Shown here: one piece after another, positions 6,996 through 16,710 of the stretch
Numbering within the stretch: the stretch's first letter is position 1
Layout: every line of letters begins with the position of its first letter
IMG/VR virus record: IMGVR_UViG_3300004448_001056
Coordinates: 1 to 25,124 of that record
Reading direction: 5' to 3' (one strand)
From: a virus
Length of the DNA stretch: 25,124 nucleotides
Notes under the pieces: model-generated
The model's input: only the letters and a program-made list of their open reading frames with translations
What the model was told of the DNA's origin: nothing
Database searches by the model: none
Program-made: the position numbers and the translations under genes

Positions 6996-7281
6996 CTTTT
7001 TCCTCTTTCTGTATTTGTTCTTGCATAATCTCTACAAGAATGTTTCCCATAAGATTATTTAGGTCGTTATTATTTAGTAGATTATCAAGTTCTTCTCCAC
7101 TATCTGGCAACCTTCTAATCGTTCTTTCAAAGTTTATATTTGGTTTTCCGTCTTCGAATCCTACTTTACCATACTGATAGACAAGACCTTTAAAGTCTCC
7201 TTCTATAATTTCTATAGCAGCGTCCTGTTCGTGGGGGTTCTCTACTACTCTAAATGTTTTACCGAATAATGTCAATGTCAT
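6988..7281 (-). CDS. Hypothetical protein, about 97 aa
   Basis: No family is recognised. The likely start is the ATG at 7281 (MTLTLFGKTFRVVENP), with a weak TGAGAA about 5-6 nt upstream. The frame stays open to an ATG at 7326, but those extra residues lie wholly inside the preceding gene and look like frame shadow. The protein has a beta-rich first half (AAIEIIEGDFKGLVYQYG) and a helical Asn/Leu-rich second half (NNNDLNNLMGNILVEIMQEQ). It ends in a charged tail. It overlaps the neighbouring genes by 8-23 nt and belongs to the peroxiredoxin-gp43 unit. Confidence 0.65.
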   Translation of the reverse strand: MTLTLFGKTFRVVENPHEQDAAIEIIEGDFKGLVYQYGKVGFEDGKPNINFERTIRRLPDSGEELDNLLNNNDLNNLMGNILVEIMQEQIQKEEKDV

Positions 7282-8389
7282 CTGGATTCTCATTCCATAC
7301 TTCAAGTGTATCTCGAAGTCTACCATCAGAACAGAGAGTGTTGTATCTATTAGATGCTTTCTTTCTCCACCATTCTGTTAAATTATTTATTGAGTATCTA
7401 TCATGGTTGGATTTCTTTATCAGTGTATCAGTTTTACCCAATATAACATCTTTAGAATTCTCATAACCTAAATCAGATACATAAAATCTTTTTCTTTCAT
7501 TCAATCTTCTTGCATCATCTACTACTTCTGTAAAGGTCTTCTTATCATCTCCATTAAGAGACTTCTTAATAATAGATATCATTTTAGATTGAACTTTCAT
7601 CTTTCTACTTGATGCTCCTTCCCAAACAATCGGACCACCATTCTTTTCTACAAAGAATTTCTCTAAGTCTTTAAAGTAATTGTCATTCATAAGTGGTGCA
7701 AAATTGCTATCAGTTAGACCTTGACCTTTCATAAAAGGTTTTAAACCGTCATACTGTGACATACTCTTAGTTGAACCATATAGTGAGGTAGTTTCAAAGT
7801 GACATAGATTCATGTCATACTTCTCATCTATAATTTGTTTCACCTCATGTGAACAACACATCAATGCAAGTAGTTTACCACCAAGATAATTGAATCCAAA
7901 TGGTTGAGTAGGAACTATAATCATTCCCATGATTGCATGTTTGTTAAATACAGGCATTGCCTCTGCACCTAACACTTCATTAAAATACCTATTTCTAGGA
8001 GCAATGTTCATCATTGGTGAACCTAGTCTTATGAAACCCACAATCTTATTTGTATTTGTTTCATAGACCATTAAAATTAATTTTCTACCAGGATTTGAGG
8101 CCTCAATTGCATGTGATGTAATAATCTCTAAGTAGTTGTGAAAGATTTCGTGGTCTGCAACACCAACTCTAAAGTTCATATCTTCTGGATGCATGTTGAA
8201 GTCTGAAAAGAAATCGTCTGATAGATTAAAACCAAAAAGAGGAGATGGCATTTTTGCCACCCTCTCTAGTTTGATTTTTCTTAAATAGTCTGCCATATTA
8301 CCAAAATTCTGGTAATACTCGGTGATTTTATCAGAAGCAAACTTAGCGTCTTCCTCTGATAAGACTAAATCACATTTGAAATCAGGCAT
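7259..8389 (-). CDS. DUF4338/DruA-like protein
   Basis: This 376-aa cytoplasmic protein has a central region resembling the DUF4338 family, which includes DruA of the Druantia anti-phage systems. Seen here: IVGFIRLGSPMMNI near residues 116-129, GMIIVPTQPFGFNYLGGKLL near 155-174, and ETTSLYGSTKSMSQYDGL near 199-216. These fit the family pattern of a GNAT-like core, a 'leave the surface, list the alleles' Leu-rich helix and a Glu-Thr-x-x-x-x-Gly motif. The last 130 residues are basic (RRLNERKRFYVSDLG, WWRKKASNR) and could bind nucleic acid. The biochemical activity of the family is unknown to me. The gene follows peroxiredoxin by one base. The family match rests on motif memory only. Confidence 0.5.
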   Translation of the reverse strand: MPDFKCDLVLSEEDAKFASDKITEYYQNFGNMADYLRKIKLERVAKMPSPLFGFNLSDDFFSDFNMHPEDMNFRVGVADHEIFHNYLEIITSHAIEASNPGRKLILMVYETNTNKIVGFIRLGSPMMNIAPRNRYFNEVLGAEAMPVFNKHAIMGMIIVPTQPFGFNYLGGKLLALMCCSHEVKQIIDEKYDMNLCHFETTSLYGSTKSMSQYDGLKPFMKGQGLTDSNFAPLMNDNYFKDLEKFFVEKNGGPIVWEGASSRKMKVQSKMISIIKKSLNGDDKKTFTEVVDDARRLNERKRFYVSDLGYENSKDVILGKTDTLIKKSNHDRYSINNLTEWWRKKASNRYNTLCSDGRLRDTLEVWNENPDDIDIIR

Positions 8390-8981: not shown

Positions 8982-9392
8982 TTAACTAATTTCAATAATT
9001 ACTGGTTTGTCTTCCTCAGGAATAACTTTAACCAGTTTGACATGTAGAATACCATCTTTCATGTCGGCACCTGTGACTTCAACTAAGTCTGCAAGATTAA
9101 AACTTCTTTTGAAAGCTCTTGATGCTAATCCTTTATGAACAAAGTCCTTAGAATCTTCATCTACTTTACCTTCAATCATAAGAACATTTTTCTCCCTAGT
9201 GATTTCAATGTCCTCTCTGCTGAAACCTGCAACTGCAAGTTCTATGCAAAAGTTCTCATCATCTTCCTTTACGATGTTGTAAGGTGGATAATTAGTTTGT
9301 GTGTGATGTGACAATCTTTCGAGGTCTTCGAAGTACCTGTCAAATCCTATTGCGAACGGTCTGAATTGACCAAAAATATCTAAATGCGTCAT
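8982..9392 (-). CDS. hsp20: Small heat-shock protein Hsp20 (IbpA-like)
   Basis: This 136-aa protein with an alpha-crystallin domain is an ATP-independent holdase that keeps unfolded proteins soluble. The N-terminus MTHLDIFGQFRPFAIGFDRY resembles IbpA and cyanophage Hsp20. The crystallin domain runs from about PPYNIVKEDDENFCIELAVA to the A-x-x-x-n-G-iL-like DGILHVKLVKV, with AGFSREDIEI and ASRAFKRSFNL in between. The ATG at 9392 is chosen because TAGGAG lies 7 nt upstream; an earlier in-frame start at 9416 would include the Shine-Dalgarno in coding sequence. It appears to be a one-gene unit with both an early-type and a late-type promoter, ended by the hairpin at 8930-8967. Hsp20 is common in marine T4-like phages. 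Confidence 0.93.
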   Translation of the reverse strand: MTHLDIFGQFRPFAIGFDRYFEDLERLSHHTQTNYPPYNIVKEDDENFCIELAVAGFSREDIEITREKNVLMIEGKVDEDSKDFVHKGLASRAFKRSFNLADLVEVTGADMKDGILHVKLVKVIPEEDKPVIIEIS

Positions 9393-9454
9393 ATGTTTTC
9401 TCCTAAATTTTAGCAAGTTAATATATGTAATCCTCTATTGAGCAATTACAAGGG

Positions 9455-9462
9455 TATTTATA
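9455..9462 (-). promoter_or_regulatory. T4-type late promoter for hsp20
   Basis: The minus strand carries TATAAATA, the exact T4 late -10 consensus read by the gp55 sigma factor. It lies in the gap between the curli operon and hsp20, giving a leader of about 55 nt. It is flanked by GGGTG and TACCC, which could form a weak 5-bp hairpin. Confidence 0.6.
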
Positions 9463-9476
9463 ACACCCATATACCT

Positions 9477-9504
9477 ATTATAAGGTCTTTTTCTGAAATT
9501 TCAA
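9477..9504 (-). promoter_or_regulatory. Sigma70-type promoter for hsp20
   Basis: The -35 TTGAAA (9504-9499) overlaps the stop codon of the preceding gene. A 16-nt spacer leads to -10 TATAAT (9482-9477). The -10 is enclosed in a short dyad, ACCT-TATAAT-AGGT. Together with the TATAAATA downstream it gives hsp20 tandem early and late promoters. Confidence 0.6.
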
Positions 9505-10106
9505 GCGGTTTTTTGTAATCTATAACATCTTTTTGATGCATTGTTTGTGACACTCTTATTATTTAATACAACTACAGCCATAAGAGTATTGACATCTCTC
9601 ATGTCTTCTCGTGTCATTACTGGTTGTTTCATTTCAAGAGTGATTGCTGGATAAAGAATAAGAAACTTTCTTACACCCATTTTCATTACTGAGGGTCTTT
9701 CACCAAAGAGAGGATTCGTTTCATAAACACAATCGTATTTGAGTCCTTTATATGTGGTATACATATCAAGGAATTGAAGTGTTATAAATGTAGTCCACTG
9801 AAAAGTGGATACTGGTTCATATAGTGTAAATTGTGACTTTCTCAGATTTACCTTTGACGAGAATTCTGTCGACTTCAGTGAATGCTCTAGCAGGACACTG
9901 GAGATATGTTTCTTCTGATAACAACAAGTCCACCCCATTATAATTTCTCGTTTGGCCTTCGAGTCTAGCACCAAGGTTGACGGCATCTCCAATGACGGAA
10001 TAGTCAAATCTAAGTTCGCTACCCATGTTTCCGACAATACATTCTCCTGTGCTAATGCCAATACCGACATTGATAGGAGGGAGATTGAGAGGAGAAAGTT
10101 CTTCAT
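9501..10106 (-). CDS. Small membrane protein, possibly DUF5658-like; start uncertain
   Basis: The unique part (9501-9816, about 105 codons) encodes TTFITLQFLDMYTTYKGL, then CVYETNPLFGERPS, and two more hydrophobic stretches. This resembles DUF5658-type small membrane proteins with an L-D-x-x-T-T and a N-P-L motif. The frame is open further upstream through the 3' end of the cyclase gene to an ATG at 10106, with internal ATGs at 10070, 9984 and 9938. No standard start lies just after the cyclase stop: the next ATG (9764) would delete the first membrane helix. The longest form begins MKNFLLSISLLSMSVLALAQ, which looks like a signal peptide, but it lies inside conserved cyclase sequence and may be chance. 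It is the last gene of the curli operon. Confidence 0.5.
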   Translation of the reverse strand: MKNFLLSISLLSMSVLALAQENVLSETWVANLDLTIPSLEMPSTLVLDSKAKREIIMGWTCCYQKKHISSVLLEHSLKSTEFSSKVNLRKSQFTLYEPVSTFQWTTFITLQFLDMYTTYKGLKYDCVYETNPLFGERPSVMKMGVRKFLILYPAITLEMKQPVMTREDMRDVNTLMAVVVLNNKSVTNNASKRCYRLQKTA

Positions 10107-11658
10107 TTAATTCCTTGGTTGCAATTAATATTTCTTCTGCAGACTTTACTGCCAACTCGGCATGATTTGGACAATTCAAAGGAGCATTCCAGAAGGACAT
10201 AATACAGTCCCCCATATACTTATCAATAGTTCCAGAATTATTTAGAATTATTTTAGTCTGAACATCTAAGAATCTATTAATTAAATTTACCAATCCCTCT
10301 GGGTCATCGTTGTTCTTAAATTTCTCGCTTATGGGAGTAAATCCACATATGTCCATGAACATGAAAGTCATCTCTCGTCTTTCACCACCTAGTCTCAATT
10401 TACTAGGGTCTTTTTGTAGTTCTTCAACCATGTCAGGAGATAAATATTTTTGGAACTGCTTTTTGATTTGTTGTTTCTCTTGGTATGTAATATAGTATTT
10501 GTTAAACGAAGCATGTCCAAATATCAACAAGGAGCTTACTGATGAAAAGAAGGTATCGAAAAGAACGAGTTGAGAAGTCCACAAATAATAACCCCCACCC
10601 AGCTGAAGTGCAACTAGTGTTAGACTCATTATCGCCGCAAGAACTGTGGAAAGTTTGTAGACCATCAACAATATCATTAAAAGACTTAACGCCAGAAGAA
10701 CAATCTCGAGCTGTTCAAGATAGTAGGATTGTTGTATTCGAGTGTCTTGCAAGACGGTTTGGATTAGGTTCGCTTGCACTTCATGGGGATACATTACACC
10801 CATTGGGGTTGAAACTGGATTATTCAGACCTTCTGCAGTTAGACCCCATATCAGAATCTTATTATTAAGACCTGATTCAGGTAAGTCTACAGCAGAGATT
10901 CTCTGAAAGGTATTCCAATATGAAATCATTACATCACCTGTAGGTGTTGTAGATATGGGTGGGTTTCTTCCCATTCTCACCCATTCTACACCTAGTTCAG
11001 GTGTGACTTTTAACTGATAAGATTTTTGGTCAAAGAATGCACGAAGAGTTTCTAGTGCAACTGAAGGATATACTTGTTCATTTGCATAGACTAATAGTGG
11101 TGCAGAACGAACTGTTCCGTCAAAGTTTGGTGTTCCCGTAATCGGTGGAGTCGAAGATGACACACCAACACCGTAAGTATTGTCTCTAAGTATGGGAATT
11201 GGTGATACTATCCCACTGTAATTCCATATAAAGTCTTTTGCCTCTGCACCACCTAGTGTGGAAGTTCCCACAAAAGGTGCAACTCCTGAATCTTTTTGTG
11301 GCGATGGCGCACTGCTTAGGATTGAAAGTCTGTTTATTAATCCTTCGGCGAATAGTGCATCTTCATTAGGGGTTCGGTCATTTTCACTAAACACCATACT
11401 AAAAACATGAGTATTACTATAATGAGAATCAAGCATAAGTTGACTGTAATTACCACGAGGTAAGGGATACTGACCAAGAGTCTCCAAAGTTTTCTCATCA
11501 ATGTCGACCAAAACGATGTCGTTAACATAAAATTCTCCTTTTTGTTGATGCAGTGTATCAAACCATGACCACTGTATGTTCTCAACAATGTATGGTGACC
11601 ATATCTTTAACCCTACTAGTAATGATATGCTTACTAGAACTGATTTCCAACTAAACAT
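9817..11658 (-). CDS. CHASE2-domain class III adenylate/guanylate cyclase
   Basis: This membrane sensor cyclase has about 613 aa. A signal anchor (about 5-22) is followed by an extracytoplasmic CHASE2 domain (about 25-300) with DIVLVDIDEKTLETLGQYPL and PNFDGTVRSAPLL. Three membrane helices follow at about 318-335, 340-360 and 365-385, and the class III catalytic domain runs from about 425 to the end. Metal-binding Asp436 (FMDICGFT) and Asp484 (IDKYMGD), Lys480, and the transition-state pair Asn561/Arg565 (VNLGARLE) are present, so it should be active. DYSVIGD has Ser where class IIIb cyclases often have Thr at the base-selecting site, favouring cAMP. The ATG at 11658 overlaps the upstream stop; a GTG at 11679 is an alternative. 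Confidence 0.93.
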   Translation of the reverse strand: MFSWKSVLVSISLLVGLKIWSPYIVENIQWSWFDTLHQQKGEFYVNDIVLVDIDEKTLETLGQYPLPRGNYSQLMLDSHYSNTHVFSMVFSENDRTPNEDALFAEGLINRLSILSSAPSPQKDSGVAPFVGTSTLGGAEAKDFIWNYSGIVSPIPILRDNTYGVGVSSSTPPITGTPNFDGTVRSAPLLVYANEQVYPSVALETLRAFFDQKSYQLKVTPELGVEWVRMGRNPPISTTPTGDVMISYWNTFQRISAVDLPESGLNNKILIWGLTAEGLNNPVSTPMGVMYPHEVQANLIQTVLQDTRIQQSYYLEQLEIVLLALSLLMILLMVYKLSTVLAAIMSLTLVALQLGGGYYLWTSQLVLFDTFFSSVSSLLIFGHASFNKYYITYQEKQQIKKQFQKYLSPDMVEELQKDPSKLRLGGERREMTFMFMDICGFTPISEKFKNNDDPEGLVNLINRFLDVQTKIILNNSGTIDKYMGDCIMSFWNAPLNCPNHAELAVKSAEEILIATKELNEELSPLNLPPINVGIGISTGECIVGNMGSELRFDYSVIGDAVNLGARLEGQTRNYNGVDLLLSEETYLQCPARAFTEVDRILVKGKSEKVTIYTI

Positions 11659-11791
11659 AGAATAAGTAGATTGCACCACCTATTAAAACTGTTGCTAAAA
11701 TTATTCGGAATACTTTCATCCAAAATTTCTTTCTTTCACTTTTTCTATAGTCATTGACCATATCAACGACTCTTTGTGGATAATAACTCAT
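11651..11791 (-). CDS. Small single-pass membrane protein, 46 aa
   Basis: This unrecognised protein begins MSYYPQRVVDMVNDYRKSER. A basic stretch (RKSERKKFWMK) precedes one membrane helix (VFRIILATVLIGGAIYLFYV) that runs to the C-terminus. The topology is therefore a cytoplasmic N-terminus with a C-terminal anchor. The start overlaps the preceding stop (ATGA) and its stop overlaps the cyclase start. Such tight coupling suggests that it is made in step with the cyclase and may be an accessory subunit, but nothing in the sequence proves this. Confidence 0.7.
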   Translation of the reverse strand: MSYYPQRVVDMVNDYRKSERKKFWMKVFRIILATVLIGGAIYLFYV

Positions 11792-12048
11792 GAGAATTTC
11801 TTTTGTATCTTTTTAAACATGTAATATATTGTTAACCCATATGTTGCAAGAACTGTCATTGTAAGTCCAATAGAGATTAATTCTACTGGTCCGAGAAAAA
11901 GAACTTCCCAAACAAATTGTGCAGCTACTTCTGCGTCACCCATTGATTCAGGCATTGCAATATTATTCTCTTCAAAGAGTTCTAATATGTCGTCATACTC
12001 TTCCATAGTGAGACATTCGTAAAACTCAGGTGGACATTCTGATCTCAT
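11788..12048 (-). CDS. Membrane protein, 86 aa, unknown
   Basis: The ATG at 12048 overlaps the stop of the curlin-like gene (ATGA), giving MRSECPPEFYECLTMEEYDD as the N-terminus. The first 35 residues are acidic and contain two Cys. One or two hydrophobic segments follow (VAAQFVWEVLFLGPVELI and SIGLTMTVLATYGLTIYY), then a short basic tail (KKIQKK). A longer frame to 12090 exists but would run into curlin coding sequence. The function is unknown. The coupled position between a curlin-like protein and the cyclase suggests an inner-membrane accessory role. Confidence 0.68.
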   Translation of the reverse strand: MRSECPPEFYECLTMEEYDDILELFEENNIAMPESMGDAEVAAQFVWEVLFLGPVELISIGLTMTVLATYGLTIYYMFKKIQKKFS

Positions 12049-12704
12049 TGTTGTGTTATCGATACTGAACAACCGCCAACTGTTTGACAATTCTGAGTAA
12101 GATTATAAGACTTATTACTAGTACCTTCTTGCAACAGATTAAATGTTGTTGGGTATGCACCAGTTAATGTTATTTGTGAAGTGTGGGCACCAGAACCTCT
12201 CTGCATAATACTTGTATCTGAACCTGAAGTAGAACCATAATAGTATGTGTGGTTGTATTTTGTTCCTGCACCTTCTTGCCACAATTCGTGGTCAACATTA
12301 CTTGCATGTATGTCTAAGTTATGTGTATGAGAACCATTCTGATAGATATCAACATCATTACTATTACCCCATATGTGTCTACCATATGTTGCACCATCAT
12401 ACTGTATTACTGCTTCGTTATTGCCTGTGCCATCGACATCACCACCCCAAGCTTTACCTGAACCCCAATATGAAACCCAAGAAATACTATTTCCTGAACC
12501 GTTTTGTTGAAAGTTAAATGTATTGTTTGCATGGTCAAAGGAGAAGTTTACTGTATTATCTGAACCTATTTGTGTGACATTAATATTTGCATTGTCTCCA
12601 CCACCGACTTGTTCAATATGGACATGATTATCACCAGCGAAAACCATAGGGGTCAATAAGACCCCTAAAGTAAATTTCAATAATGATTTAGTTATATAAT
12701 CCAT
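12045..12704 (-). CDS. Curlin-like secreted amyloid subunit (CsgA/CsgB type), 219 aa
   Basis: A Sec signal peptide (about residues 1-23, MDYITKSLLKFTLGVLLTPM...FAG) precedes a repetitive mature region rich in Asn, Gln, Gly, Ser and Thr. Curlin-type repeats with hydrophobic-x-Q-x-G-x-x-N spacing are visible: HIEQVGGGDNANINVTQIG, FNFQQNGSGNSI, VDIYQNGSHTHNL and FNLLQEGTSNKSY. It ends in a Cys pair and VSITQQ. In bacteria such repeats stack into a beta-solenoid amyloid exported through CsgG. Aromatic and His content is high (YNHTYYYG). The gene lies in the same operon as csgG and csgF. Whether it is the major or nucleating subunit cannot be told. Confidence 0.82.
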   Translation of the reverse strand: MDYITKSLLKFTLGVLLTPMVFAGDNHVHIEQVGGGDNANINVTQIGSDNTVNFSFDHANNTFNFQQNGSGNSISWVSYWGSGKAWGGDVDGTGNNEAVIQYDGATYGRHIWGNSNDVDIYQNGSHTHNLDIHASNVDHELWQEGAGTKYNHTYYYGSTSGSDTSIMQRGSGAHTSQITLTGAYPTTFNLLQEGTSNKSYNLTQNCQTVGGCSVSITQQ

Positions 12705-12841
12705 AGTAATATCATCGTTAAGAAAACCCCTTTACTAAATGCCAACCAATACATATGGTAGTCATCAAGTCTAACAGACTTCTGAAACCCAACTAATTGA
12801 GATTCATGCCATTCTCGGAGTTGTGATAACATATTTATCAT
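12692..12841 (-). CDS. Small membrane protein, 49 aa
   Basis: The start at 12841 (MINMLSQLREWHESQ) is supported by a perfect AGGAGG 4 nt upstream; a second in-frame ATG three codons on would give more usual spacing. The C-terminal third is one hydrophobic segment (HMYWLAFSKGVFLTMILLWII). It overlaps the curlin-like gene start by 13 nt. The AGGAGG lies within a potential hairpin, with ACGAC and GTCGT as arms, which could modulate its translation. The function is unknown. Confidence 0.6.
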   Translation of the reverse strand: MINMLSQLREWHESQLVGFQKSVRLDDYHMYWLAFSKGVFLTMILLWII

Positions 12842-12875
12842 ACGACCTCCTCTTTTTGTGTTGTCGTAGTAGTAT

Positions 12876-14036
12876 TTAGTTAGATTGGTTGATGTAAATG
12901 AAGATTTCATCTCCACCATTTACTGTTATAACACCTTCATAACTTGGTGTAATTGTGTTTAATTGTACTGATGCACCTGGTTGAAATGTTAAAGTTATCT
13001 TTCCCTCAACCTCTCTGTAAAATACAAGGCCACCATCTTCAATAAAAACATTGTATTGTGAATCTTTATTCTTACCAAGTGAAGCACCCTTTATGTTAAA
13101 GTCTGAACTTCCACCCGAAGATGATTGTCTATCTCCCAAATCCTTTGTGGTTTTAATTAGTTCTTCAACAACATCTAACATGTCTACTAAGAAGTCTGCA
13201 TCTAAGAAGTCAATATCAATAGAACTATATCTTGCATCGTAGTCTGGGTCATTTGCATAATCATCGTAGTCTTTTTCCAACTCATTGAACTCTAAGAAAT
13301 CTACATCTAACATTCCTTGGTCTTCATTGTTATCATCTTGAGCTGCTTCTTGTACTGCCTCTGCAACTGCAGGTGGTGGTGCAACAATAAACATATTATC
13401 TATCTGATTAACTGATAGATTTGATATTGTCACAGGACTTGTTGGTGGACTATCTAAACTTGAAACCATTGTTGCCTGAAATGCCTTATCTAAGACTATT
13501 CGACCACCTTCATTTATGACTGTTATTTCTCCTGATGAATCACCAAATCTATCAGGAAGTAGAACTATCAGACTCCTTCCGAGTTCGTCAATGGTTGTTG
13601 TAAAATCTGTCCCACGAATTGCTATTTGTGCCGTAGGTGTTCGTATGTCTATGTTAGACTTTTTAATTTTTTGACCATTTCCAGAAGCAAATCGTGCCGT
13701 GCCTTGCATCATTCTTAAAGACATCTTCGATAAACTTGGATTTGGGTCATAGTATACTTCGTCTATGTATACTTGTGTATGTTCTGTAAGTGCAAGTTCC
13801 TCATCATCAAGGAACTCAATAAGCATTCTGCCGTTGCCTGTTATTGCCTCATCATAGAGAACAATTCCTGTGCCAACATCATTACCTATTTCAGAATTGT
13901 TTCTAAGAACAGAACCAATTCCTGTGGATTCTACAATATCTCCAATGGAGTCTGCGTGAACAGACCCCATGAAGAGTAAACTGCTAAGAATCAGTAGTTG
14001 TGTCTTTCTGATTGATTTGTATAACTGAATTATCAC
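12876..14036 (-). CDS. Secreted FecR-domain protein, 386 aa
   Basis: A Sec signal peptide (about 1-28, cleavage after SVHA) is followed by a FecR domain at about 30-200. The visible pattern is IGSVLRNN, then GRMLIEFLDDEELALTEHTQ, then RMMQGTARFASG, and the hallmark TAQIAIRGTDFTTT. The middle (about 235-310) is very acidic and low-complexity (DDNNEDQG, DYDDYANDPDYD). The end is beta-rich (ITLTFQPGASVQLN). There is no membrane anchor, so it should be periplasmic or surface-exposed. The only start preceding the signal peptide is GTG at 14036, overlapping the upstream gene by 53 nt. FecR proteins often neighbour CHASE2 cyclases in bacteria; here both are in one phage operon. Confidence 0.85.
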   Translation of the reverse strand: MIIQLYKSIRKTQLLILSSLLFMGSVHADSIGDIVESTGIGSVLRNNSEIGNDVGTGIVLYDEAITGNGRMLIEFLDDEELALTEHTQVYIDEVYYDPNPSLSKMSLRMMQGTARFASGNGQKIKKSNIDIRTPTAQIAIRGTDFTTTIDELGRSLIVLLPDRFGDSSGEITVINEGGRIVLDKAFQATMVSSLDSPPTSPVTISNLSVNQIDNMFIVAPPPAVAEAVQEAAQDDNNEDQGMLDVDFLEFNELEKDYDDYANDPDYDARYSSIDIDFLDADFLVDMLDVVEELIKTTKDLGDRQSSSGGSSDFNIKGASLGKNKDSQYNVFIEDGGLVFYREVEGKITLTFQPGASVQLNTITPSYEGVITVNGGDEIFIYINQSN

Positions 14037-14712
14037 TTGTGATGTCCAATGTTATCTCACCTTTACAAGTAGAAATACCTGTTGGGCATGTTCCACTTAA
14101 CTGATTGATGTCTACATCTGCAGAATCACCATTCAATTCAAAAGTGATATTGTGATAGGCACCATCTTTCTGTAATGTGTTGATGTTATTTGAACCACCT
14201 GTGATGTCAAAGTTCCATGTGACATCATCTGATTCTACATCTACATCAAATACATTTGAGTTTCCTATTACAATTAAATCAAAGTCTAACCTCTCTGCTT
14301 GAGCAACTGAACCTTGGTCAAAGTCCATAGTATTAGAATCACCAGTTATATCTACCAACATATTGGAAGAATCTGATGAACCTGTTGAACCAATTAACCA
14401 ATCAAACACATTACTATCACCGTTGAATTCTAGTGTGTATGATGATGAGTCGGCAGTCAATGTTCCATAAAGTAAGTTCTCGTTACCTAACTGGTCGATG
14501 TTAAAAACCAACGAAGTACCTGTGATAGGCATGGCAGCTGAACTACTTGAAAAGTCATTCAGTCCCATTTTGTTACCATAACCGATTTGGTCGACATATA
14601 ATTGTAATGTATCACCAACTTGTGTTATGTTAATTTCGTTGTCATCGTCTGCAGCTGCAAACAGAAAAGGTACAGTCAAAAATAAACTTAGCGCTAATGT
14701 TATTTTTTTCAT
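13984..14712 (-). CDS. Second curlin-like secreted protein (CsgB/CsgA type), 242 aa
   Basis: The ATG at 14712 overlaps the csgG stop (ATGA), with AAGGA about 9 nt upstream. It gives a clear signal peptide (MKKITLALSLFLTVPFLFAA). The mature part has curlin-like spacing: INITQVGDTLQL, YVDQIGYGNKMGL, FNIDQLGNENLL, LEFNGDSNVF, VDITGDSNTMDFDQG and IQINQKD. It is strikingly rich in Asp (for example VFDVDVESDDV), more acidic than the other curlin-like protein, and has a Cys pair near residues 212-220. Its place next to csgG suggests a nucleator or minor subunit, but this is inference. Confidence 0.78.
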   Translation of the reverse strand: MKKITLALSLFLTVPFLFAAADDDNEINITQVGDTLQLYVDQIGYGNKMGLNDFSSSSAAMPITGTSLVFNIDQLGNENLLYGTLTADSSSYTLEFNGDSNVFDWLIGSTGSSDSSNMLVDITGDSNTMDFDQGSVAQAERLDFDLIVIGNSNVFDVDVESDDVTWNFDITGGSNNINTLQKDGAYHNITFELNGDSADVDINQLSGTCPTGISTCKGEITLDITSDNSVIQINQKDTTTDS

Positions 14713-15623
14713 TTTTCTTTTCCTTCTATTTCCCAAAAACCTCTATCGTGTCCTTGGTTTATTAATTCGAACACTGCCGCTTCAACTGCAGACCGTGTCG
14801 CGTATGTCACACTCTCATTATTTCCCACTCCGTCCTCGAATTCGATGAGTTGTGTTCCTTGTTCTATAAATCGGAATACATCACCTCCTCCACCATAAGA
14901 AAGGATAGTCTTTCTTGTTTGGACATTCAATAATACTTCACCAGTTAGAACTGATACTGCTCGTAATGAAACAGTCACAGCATCCTTTCTATACATCCTA
15001 CTAACACCAACTCCAAGAGTTCTGGCACCTCGGCCACCACTCTCTAAATTGGTATCATACCCAATAATTCCACCCTCGATAATCATTCCTGCAAATAAAA
15101 GTGGTGCAACACCTGGAGAATCTTCTCCTTTTTTCTTTGCAATATCATCTCTGGCAGACCTAATAATTTGTCTCTCTCTAACAAGGTGGTCTAAACCTTG
15201 TCTTTCAACCACTCTAAACCATGTGTCTCCACCAGCAGTCTTTAATGCATCAATTAATAACTCAGTTCCACCTTGTGAGACTGCAGTTGAAAATGATGCA
15301 AGGTTATCAACTGCCTTTCTTTGTCCTGTTTTGTCTGAAAAATTATAGACTGCAACTACTGGTTTATTTTTTGCAGGTGGTAATTTAAGTAGTTCTATAT
15401 AACTTGGAAGTTTAACTGCTTCTGGTTCATCAACACAAATGAAAGGCATTGCTCTCTCAAAAGTTCTACCCATTGCTCTGGCATAGTTAACCAAATCATG
15501 GTCGTATTCATCACCCCATGTTTCTGGATTACACTCTTGTGGTTCGTTTGAAAATCTAGGAACCGATGCGCAAGAGGTAAGTATTATTGCTAAACTAACC
15601 GCCGTCAGTAGTCGAACCTTCAC
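14709..15623 (-). CDS. csgG: CsgG curli secretion channel lipoprotein
   Basis: CsgG forms a nonameric outer-membrane pore that exports curli subunits. A lipoprotein signal ends in the lipobox LTSC (Cys18 from the GTG start). The core matches E. coli CsgG closely: VVAVYNFSDKTGQ, FSTAVSQ, ERQGLDHLVRERQIIR, GMIIEGGIIGYDTN, KTILSYGG, FRFIEQ and LINQGHDRGFWEI. Before the core is an extension of about 65 residues with two Cys (31 and 63) absent from E. coli. At the constriction, the Phe of the E. coli Tyr-Asn-Phe ring is kept (ASFST) while the other positions differ. The GTG at 15623 is chosen for GGGAG 8 nt upstream; an ATG at 15653 is also open. It overlaps csgF. Confidence 0.95.
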   Translation of the reverse strand: MKVRLLTAVSLAIILTSCASVPRFSNEPQECNPETWGDEYDHDLVNYARAMGRTFERAMPFICVDEPEAVKLPSYIELLKLPPAKNKPVVAVYNFSDKTGQRKAVDNLASFSTAVSQGGTELLIDALKTAGGDTWFRVVERQGLDHLVRERQIIRSARDDIAKKKGEDSPGVAPLLFAGMIIEGGIIGYDTNLESGGRGARTLGVGVSRMYRKDAVTVSLRAVSVLTGEVLLNVQTRKTILSYGGGGDVFRFIEQGTQLIEFEDGVGNNESVTYATRSAVEAAVFELINQGHDRGFWEIEGKEK

Positions 15624-16098
15624 CTGTATCACTCCCGAAGTTACCACTTCCAATTGGTATCTCTAAAATTGTTTCTGTTCCGTCACTATCAATTATTGTC
15701 ATTCTAATAAATTCTGTTCCATCTAAATTTGTTATAACTTCATATGTGACTGTTGAACCTTCTAATACGAATGAACCGAATCTAACTGGATTATCGTTGT
15801 TGAACATATTTTCAACCAACTGTTTTGCCATTTGGGCATAGATTCTCGATTCTAAATTTCTAATAAATTTTGCTAAGGTTGTATTATTCTCTTCTCTCTC
15901 GGCTGCTTTTCTTGCCGCTTCTAGTGCCTCTTCAATTGCCTTTTTTCTGGAGAACTCTTGGTTTTCCACGGTCAAATAATGAGATGCAGTTCCTACTCCT
16001 GAGAAACTAGGATTTTTAAACTTGTGTACTATCTCTGTTGCAGATAGTGAAAATGATAATAGAAGTGCGATGAAACACATAGGTAAAATTATTTTCAT
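15595..16098 (-). CDS. csgF: CsgF curli assembly factor
   Basis: CsgF docks into the CsgG pore from outside and links the nucleator subunit to the channel. A signal peptide of 19 residues (ending SLSA) exposes TEIVHKFKNPSFSG, matching the E. coli CsgF mature N-terminus (F-x-F-x-N-P-x-F-x-G) that inserts into the CsgG constriction. A helical, charged middle follows (EEALEAARKAAEREENN), then the beta-rich C-terminal part (TYEVITNLDGTEFIRMTI, DGTETILEIPI). It ends in a Gly/Ser/Thr-rich tail that overlaps the start of csgG by 29 nt. Length is 167 aa against 138 in E. coli. Its ATG overlaps the preceding stop (ATGA). Confidence 0.9.
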   Translation of the reverse strand: MKIILPMCFIALLLSFSLSATEIVHKFKNPSFSGVGTASHYLTVENQEFSRKKAIEEALEAARKAAEREENNTTLAKFIRNLESRIYAQMAKQLVENMFNNDNPVRFGSFVLEGSTVTYEVITNLDGTEFIRMTIIDSDGTETILEIPIGSGNFGSDTGEGSTTDGG

Positions 16099-16352
16099 TT
16101 TTCCTTACTCCTTTTCTTTTCGTTCTCTTTGTATTCTAAGACTACATCAACCTTTTGTTGAAGTCTTATAAGGTCTTGGTCTAACATACGCACTTGGTCA
16201 ATTAATCTAATCAATGCCATATGTTGTTTTTCAATTTCAGGTTCTAGTTCGTTACCTACAAACCACCAGATATAGTATATAAAATAGCCTAGACCAACCA
16301 TCATTACGATTGGGAATCCGTATTCGGATATTAATTGGGCAACTTCGGACAT
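16095..16352 (-). CDS. Small membrane/coiled-coil protein, 85 aa (holin-like architecture)
   Basis: One N-terminal membrane helix (about 12-33, FPIVMMVGLGYFIYYIWWFV) is followed by a coiled coil with clear heptads (ALIRLIDQVRMLDQDLIRLQ) and a Lys/Glu-rich tail. The layout resembles BhlA/UviB-type holin-like proteins. It shares this layout and an ISE-x-G-x-PI N-terminal motif with the gene just upstream, so the two may be diverged paralogues. It is coupled to both neighbours (TAATG before, ATGA after). A role as holin or as an inner-membrane part of the curli apparatus is possible; neither is shown. Confidence 0.72.
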   Translation of the reverse strand: MSEVAQLISEYGFPIVMMVGLGYFIYYIWWFVGNELEPEIEKQHMALIRLIDQVRMLDQDLIRLQQKVDVVLEYKENEKKRSKEK

Positions 16353-16648
16353 TAATCCCTCCGTGCGTCAATCTTATCGTCTTCTATAAAGTTCTCTGCT
16401 CTGGCAATTCTCTCTATATCGGGTCTTAGTTCTAACGCTGAACTTACTAAAATGTCTATTTTAATCATTTCGTTAGACATTGTTCTTGCACGATTTTCTA
16501 GTGACTTACAGAACATGGTTAGTGTTTTTATATCGTCTACAACACCTTCTAGTATCTGTTTTATAACAGTGAATATAAAGAAACCCATTACTAGACTACC
16601 AGCAATAGGGGCACCAACTTCACTTATTAATCCAAAGATATCTTCCAT
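16352..16648 (-). CDS. Small membrane/coiled-coil protein, 98 aa; first gene of curli operon
   Basis: Residues 14-36 form a membrane helix (IAGSLVMGFFIFTVIKQILE). A long amphipathic helix follows, with hydrophobic spacing suited to a coiled coil, and the C-terminus is charged (EDDKIDARRD). The start MEDIFGLISEVGAPIAG mirrors the next gene's ISEYGFPIV. There is no Shine-Dalgarno. The TATAAATA late promoter lies so close that the predicted transcription start falls on the A of the ATG, so the first cistron may be leaderless. Holin-like architecture is noted, but function is unknown. Confidence 0.72.
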   Translation of the reverse strand: MEDIFGLISEVGAPIAGSLVMGFFIFTVIKQILEGVVDDIKTLTMFCKSLENRARTMSNEMIKIDILVSSALELRPDIERIARAENFIEDDKIDARRD

Positions 16649-16653
16649 GCCAT

Positions 16654-16661
16654 TATTTATA
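16654..16661 (-). promoter_or_regulatory. T4-type late promoter for the curli-cyclase operon
   Basis: The minus strand carries TATAAATA, the exact T4 late -10 consensus, 5 nt before the first ATG of the operon and just after an intrinsic terminator. Taking -6 as the last base of the element, +1 falls at 16648. Only one other exact match was found in a gap, before hsp20. Confidence 0.7.
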
Positions 16662-16681: not shown

Positions 16682-16710
16682 AAAAAAAAGGGCACTTTTC
16701 AGTACCCTTT
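16682..16710 (-). terminator. Strong intrinsic terminator closing the replication unit
   Basis: On the minus strand AAAGGGTACT (16710-16701) pairs with AGTGCCCTTT (16696-16687) with one wobble pair, around a GAAA tetraloop. The 3' arm runs into eight consecutive T residues. It lies 20 nt after the stop of the 81-aa gene and 20 nt before the late promoter, insulating the curli operon from early and middle transcription. Confidence 0.9.

Follow-up and report, generated by a model that had tools for sequence, protein, structure and literature searches.

What curli genes do in phages of the most abundant bacteria of the ocean has been an open question since 2020, the year in which csgF and csgG, together with an operon, were described in pelagimyophages (Zaragoza-Solas 2020, PMC7029224). 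The curli genes of the phage Melnitz were later discussed as a lysis regulator (Buchholz 2022, PMC9004378), and a module with curlins, FecR and a cyclase was found in two phage families, podoviruses and myoviruses, with detections at 65 ocean stations as well as in metatranscriptomes and a proposed alphaproteobacterial origin (Wittmers 2022, PMC9599517). The module considered here lies in a 25,124-base fragment of a T4-like phage from IMG/VR (IMGVR_UViG_3300004448_001056), the whole of which is referred to as the window. Its gene set and order are already published in these three papers, chiefly the last; the finding as put forward in an earlier interpretation made without database searches (the sequence-only reading) is thus not novel, as Wittmers 2022 already describes these genes in this order in pelagiphages, the phages of SAR11 bacteria. 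What appears to be new is a conserved late promoter, the swapping of the second curlin, a gene overprinted on the cyclase gene, and a doubt concerning the published label "histidine kinase".

The window holds a complete type VIII secretion (curli) module of pelagimyophage kind, by which a two-part curli-like fibre would most likely be displayed on the infected cell late in infection. All genes of the module are on the minus strand, from 16648 to 9501, and neighbours mostly overlap by 1-60 nucleotides (nt). Open reading frames (ORFs) and family matches agree with the sequence-only reading in placing CsgF, CsgG, two curlin relatives, FecR, small membrane proteins and a CHASE2 cyclase in one run, with the following features in window coordinates (lengths in amino acids, aa):

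16687..16710, minus strand: terminator-like hairpin, end of the upstream transcript; many relatives show a similar hairpin and T-run just before the promoter
16654..16661, minus strand: T4-type late promoter by consensus, TATAAATA, beginning at -13 relative to the first gene's ATG
16352..16648, minus strand: sm1, 98 aa, a single membrane segment near the N-terminus, then a charged C-terminal half that is likely a coiled coil; phrog_18771
16095..16352, minus strand: sm2, an 85-aa relative of sm1
15595..16098, minus strand: CsgF, with the CsgG-binding motif F-x-N-P-x-F-x-G kept; Pfam 1e-14
14709..15653, minus strand: CsgG outer-membrane pore lipoprotein, lipobox LTSC at residues 25-28; Pfam 5e-54; true start probably inside the ORF
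13984..14736, minus strand: curlin 1, conserved, curlin-like, secreted, a predicted beta-solenoid; likely start ATG 14712
12876..14036, minus strand: secreted FecR-domain protein with a signal peptide; Pfam FecR 2e-8; no cytoplasmic or membrane part seen
12692..12919, minus strand: small membrane protein (49 to 75 aa), probable start ATG 12841 (49 aa) behind AGGAGG; no family in Pfam and PHROG scans
12045..12704, minus strand: curlin 2, hypervariable and apparently allele-swapped, curlin-like, a predicted beta-solenoid with conserved ends
11788..12090, minus strand: 100-aa ORF with a C-terminal membrane segment, from the ORF list
11651..11791, minus strand: 46-aa ORF with one membrane segment, from the ORF list
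9817..11679, minus strand: CHASE2 class III adenylate cyclase; Pfam CHASE2 9e-31 and Guanylate_cyc 9e-16
9501..10106, minus strand: overprinted gene, 201 aa, with a DUF5658-like C-terminal membrane domain, in the +1 frame relative to the cyclase

Since a megablast of the window against phage records gave no match, relatives were taken from IMG/VR, with 97 loci collected by CsgG similarity and an independent second collection of 61 obtained with sm1 as the query. The loci were chosen by similarity, and all fractions given here describe this clade rather than phages at large. Gene order is constant over the 97 loci, and curlin, FecR, curlin and cyclase follow CsgG in all 34 that extend more than 6.5 kb beyond it, which ties the cyclase to the module as had been supposed. 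Among the sm1-query loci, CsgG is present in 60 of 61 and the curlin-FecR-curlin series in 43 of 44, so that the recurrence of the same gene set and order in related phages, the check that the sequence-only reading had proposed, is borne out, and the opposite case, that the genes never occur together, fails. Among 50,697 phage records, the sm1/sm2-type proteins and FecR were found only in six HTVC008M and Melnitz records, all of them having CsgG. Values of about 0.05-0.25 for the ratio of nonsynonymous to synonymous change (dN/dS) indicate purifying selection on curlin 1 and most other genes, and the curlins are therefore not debris. The sole case of the 61 in which the sm1/sm2 pair is found without CsgG or curlins within 6 kb is locus L204, around 6001.

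The second curlin appears to have been swapped repeatedly between phages that are otherwise near-identical, while curlin 1 is conserved. Between the window and locus L003, the operon DNA is mostly 83-99% identical and drops to 58-69% in curlin 2; the percent identities of the proteins are 99 for CsgG, 94 for curlin 1, 86 for FecR and 46 for curlin 2. The comparison with L009 gives 97 for FecR and 42 for curlin 2, and other pairs behave similarly: L013/L023 (CsgG 98, curlin 2 41), L019/L028 (CsgG 95, curlin 2 20) and L079/L070 (FecR 99, curlin 2 about 34). The opposite pattern is seen between L034 and L051, in which FecR is 57% but curlin 2 is 84% identical. When the 15 classes of curlin 2 were mapped onto a backbone tree (CsgG, curlin 1 and FecR), 26 changes were needed, with a minimum of 14 and a mean of 31.0 for shuffled labels. 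The result was replicated in 33 further loci found through sm1 (L158/L206, CsgG 99 and curlin 2 26; L164/L166, FecR 96 and curlin 2 27). The termini of curlin 2 are more alike (often 60-70%) than its core (about 28% or less) in most of the swapped pairs checked, and in the most divergent pairs the ends are less conserved as well. The start of curlin 2 in the window also holds, just within it, a terminator-like hairpin (12647-12667, minus strand) that could be an attenuator.

That both secreted proteins carry curlin-type repeats, as the sequence-only reading claimed, holds for the families, in which 42 of 49 and 23 of 43 members match Curlin_rpt; the window curlins taken singly score 0.004 and 0.07, below the cut-off. 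The curlin 2 profile matches the solved E. coli CsgA (8enq, E 1.5e-4), and the structure prediction suggested at the outset models both curlins as regular beta-solenoids, with predicted local distance difference test (pLDDT) scores of 81 and 79. Foldseek returned weak solenoid matches only, with the FapC amyloid among them, which is not diagnostic.

The exact TATAAATA and the preceding terminator-like hairpin of the sequence-only reading are both present, and the position of the promoter is kept in relatives; the description as an exact T4 late promoter is right for the sequence, and the assignment is one of consensus and conserved position, not of mapped 5' ends. By count alone the box is not rare, with two copies seen in the window where 2.3 are expected, both of them directly upstream of minus-strand genes. 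The second copy, at 9455-9462 (minus strand), is upstream of an Hsp20-like gene (8982-9416) that has a normal leader and an AGGAG site. Among relatives, NATAAATA is found upstream of sm1 in 50 of 68 distinct regions, compared with 2.8% of random stretches, and its commonest position is with the first base exactly 13 nt ahead of the ATG; in relatives without the box, an ORF usually ends immediately before sm1. Late transcription begins roughly one helical turn past the box (PMC2988020), so a box at -13 would place the start at or next to the ATG, and the spacing therefore predicts a leaderless late messenger RNA (mRNA) whose +1 is the A of the ATG. Within HTVC008M, 9 of the 31 boxes that lie within 120 nt of an annotated start sit at exactly 13. 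Of six pelagiphage-like records, five have the arrangement TATAAATA-N5-ATG 3-6 times and the sixth has it once, compared with once in T4, twice in P-SSM4 and not at all in Syn9, and the reversed pattern is found in no record. A start codon at the predicted +1 of late promoters is seen in the HTVC008M (L124-L126), L013, L028 and L080 records. Judged by this spacing, leaderless late mRNA appears to be common in these phages, for which literature searches found no report of it.

The 3' end of the cyclase gene is dual coding, as indicated by a frame open beyond chance and by depressed synonymous change. An ORF does end at 9501, where the sequence-only reading closed the run, but it is that of an out-of-frame gene (9501-10106) of 201 codons, about 97 of them shared with the cyclase gene and read there in the +1 frame, an overlap of about 290 nt. 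Of 37 distinct loci, 26 keep this frame open over 96-137 codons; when the cyclase protein is kept and its codons are redrawn, the expected open length is about 5-18 codons, and the length observed was not attained in any of the 300 draws made for each locus. Inside the overlap, in loci having it, differences fall from 0.56 to 0.38 at four-fold sites and from 0.41 to 0.235 at two-fold sites, whereas in loci without it the same region goes from 0.60 to 0.63 and from 0.45 to 0.46. Twenty-eight loci have the DUF5658-like domain behind the cyclase; three others (L048, L052 and L054) have it ahead of the cyclase and the +1 frame closed. Among 51 new loci found with a cyclase query, the frame is open for at least 96 codons in all 38 with the domain after the cyclase and for fewer than 85 in all 13 without it (81 in L276). 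In many loci the overprinted ORF starts with a signal-peptide-like segment directly after an in-frame stop, and the possibility that this signal peptide is a chance product of the overlap was ruled out by the synonymous-codon simulations. The cyclase may instead be shifted into the +1 frame by a programmed frameshift, but the frame opens just ahead of a conserved ATG, with AAGGA upstream of it in the window. The overprinted gene offers a well-controlled example of two genes overlapping at length on the same strand.

CsgG has the Pfam CsgG domain, a lipobox and a conserved FSTAV after the constriction loop, and matches solved pore chains; the CsgF profile, built from three sequences, matched no solved structure. 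CsgE and CsgD, which the sequence-only reading took to be absent, gave no match among the ORFs of the run scanned against Pfam and PHROG, the 100-aa and 46-aa ORFs being left unscanned. With a signal peptide, no further membrane segment and no sigma partner seen in the module, the FecR-domain protein is by its sequence features a secreted protein and not a membrane-anchored iron regulator. The catalytic residues of the cyclase (D443, K487, D491, D565, N568 and R572) are all present, and the class III positions (metal Asp pair, Lys/Asp specificity pair, transition-state Asn/Arg) are kept in 41 of 41 loci, with one exception among them, a change of N to S, apparently in Melnitz. In place of the published "histidine kinase" are sm1 and sm2, of about 90 aa with one membrane segment. 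Histidine is absent from 80 of 89 sm1 proteins and D-x-G-x-G from all 89, and no kinase family in Pfam or PHROG matches, so the label is unsupported and the genes look misnamed, the correspondence with the authors' genes being one of position. A role for sm1/sm2 as generic holins was also rejected, the match to phrog_4898 being too weak, with no Pfam family and an occurrence almost only with CsgG.

In the proposed mechanism, transcription driven by gp55, gp33 and gp45 from TATAAATA would cover the whole run late in infection. The CsgG lipoprotein would form a pore in the outer membrane, capped by CsgF, and both curlins would cross by way of the Sec system and then this pore. Curlin 1, being conserved, could serve as a fixed base or nucleator, on which curlin 2, with its conserved first and last repeats and variable core, would stack as the exposed, major subunit. 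A periplasm-facing sensor pair that makes cyclic AMP may consist of FecR and the CHASE2 cyclase, and sm1, sm2 and the overprinted DUF5658-like protein may be dedicated membrane partners. Most plausibly, the coat would benefit the phage by altering what binds the infected cell, whether rival phages, neighbouring cells or grazers, and such a change would favour the exchange of curlin 2 alleles. The fuller proposal, a polymorphic surface amyloid whose outer curlin is swapped like a variable surface antigen and whose coat sets the binders, with the cyclase gene carrying the overprinted gene, is put forward more tentatively, at somewhat under even chances. The swapped curlin 2 suggests selection on the exposed part of the fibre protein and not on the pore alone, and the question thereby becomes a testable one, of recognition at the surface of the infected cell.

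Several observations weigh against fibre display. Melnitz-infected cells showed no clumping (Buchholz et al. 2022, PMC9004378), and no gate such as CsgE was found among the scanned ORFs. Canonical Q-x-G-x-x-N repeats are few in curlin 1, about one per protein, its profile matches no solved curlin, and curlin 2 matches generic beta-solenoids in structure comparisons. FecR stood next to CHASE2 in one bacterial neighbourhood of eight CHASE2 genes in seven genomes, some partly viewed, and the pairing as a general bacterial habit was rejected on that count, with upstream genes partly cut off or unscanned. The absence of clumping also speaks against the hypothesis of "sibling capture" (Zaragoza-Solas 2020, PMC7029224), by which fibres glue infected cells to their neighbours so that progeny find hosts, with curlin 2 alleles choosing the cells. 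The curlin set is complete and its outer subunit exchangeable, as that hypothesis would have it, and the present data do not separate aggregation from the exclusion of rival phages; on balance it is unlikely. A similarly low probability is given to a mere recombination hot spot at curlin 2, with no selection on the protein. Recombination is seen also downstream of the cyclase and within other genes, and gene-tree correlations are low overall, but both flanks are mostly more than 90% identical in many pairs, the swapped piece is always a curlin, mostly with conserved ends, and curlin 2 alleles are shared by distant phages.

Two further models need only the pore. The late promoter, a very weak resemblance of the small membrane proteins to the holin family phrog_4898 (E 5e-5 over 20 residues) and a published structural argument (PMC9004378) agree with a lysis-timing role (Buchholz 2022), in which CsgG and CsgF form a hole, gated or similar to a pinholin, by which the envelope is depolarised or made permeable, with the curlins as plugs or passengers. 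That role is rather improbable, as HTVC008M has two annotated endolysins elsewhere, and no complete module lacks either curlin, with curlin 1 under purifying selection and curlin 2 diversified, which is unexpected if the pore alone matters. Least probable is an uptake channel, proposed by Zaragoza-Solas 2020 (PMC7029224) and Wittmers 2022 (PMC9599517), by which the CsgG pore admits large nutrients to the infected cell and FecR and the cyclase sense them; the lack of a CsgE gate among the scanned ORFs is in keeping with it, but CsgF, the two curlins and the swapping of curlin 2 are left unexplained, and the FecR protein is secreted without the membrane anchor of the regulator. Export and display of a two-part fibre is the most economical reading. 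Models with a pore only do not account for the upkeep of curlin 1 or the swapping of curlin 2.

The minus strand of the window also encodes the gp45 clamp, the gp44 and gp62 parts of the clamp loader, the gp43 polymerase, a UvsX-like recombinase, Hsp20 and a peroxiredoxin. The module is placed between the gp44/gp62/regA block and hsp20, at the same site in more than 50 relatives; in HTVC008M and Melnitz it is between gp32 and tail genes, and in other phages near exo/phoH or gp59. The module has therefore moved between phage genomes as a unit. Inside the replication block, at 7259-8389 (minus strand), is a 376-aa protein matching the DruA domain of the Druantia defence system (PF14236, 6e-11). 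The module is found in phage order on contigs of metagenome-assembled genomes (L098-L107 and L123) titled Planctomycetaceae, Flavobacteriales, Synechococcus, Pelagibacter and others, which are probably mis-binned phage contigs.

Among known systems, the pelagiphage modules of Wittmers 2022 (PMC9599517) are alike in having one or two small genes, CsgF, CsgG, CsgA/B, FecR, a second CsgA/B and an adenylate cyclase, without CsgC, CsgD or CsgE; by text search, the late promoter, the swapped second curlin and the overprinted DUF5658-like gene go unmentioned there. The operons of HTVC008M and Melnitz (NC_020484 and MZ577097) have the identical order, with identities to the window of 50% and 46% for CsgG over the matched part and 40% and 35% for the cyclase, but they occupy another genomic site, not between regA and hsp20, and have no overprinted gene. 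The C-terminal membrane domain of the overprinted protein resembles Pfam DUF5658 (PF18902; 1e-5 for the best relative, 0.003 for the window copy), while its N-terminal part is, unlike in that family, read out of frame from the cyclase gene. With E. coli curli (csgBAC/csgDEFG) the window shares relatives of CsgG and CsgF and the curlin repeats; it differs in having no matches to CsgC, CsgD and CsgE, and in the linkage of FecR and a CHASE2 cyclase to the module under what is, by its promoter consensus, phage late control.

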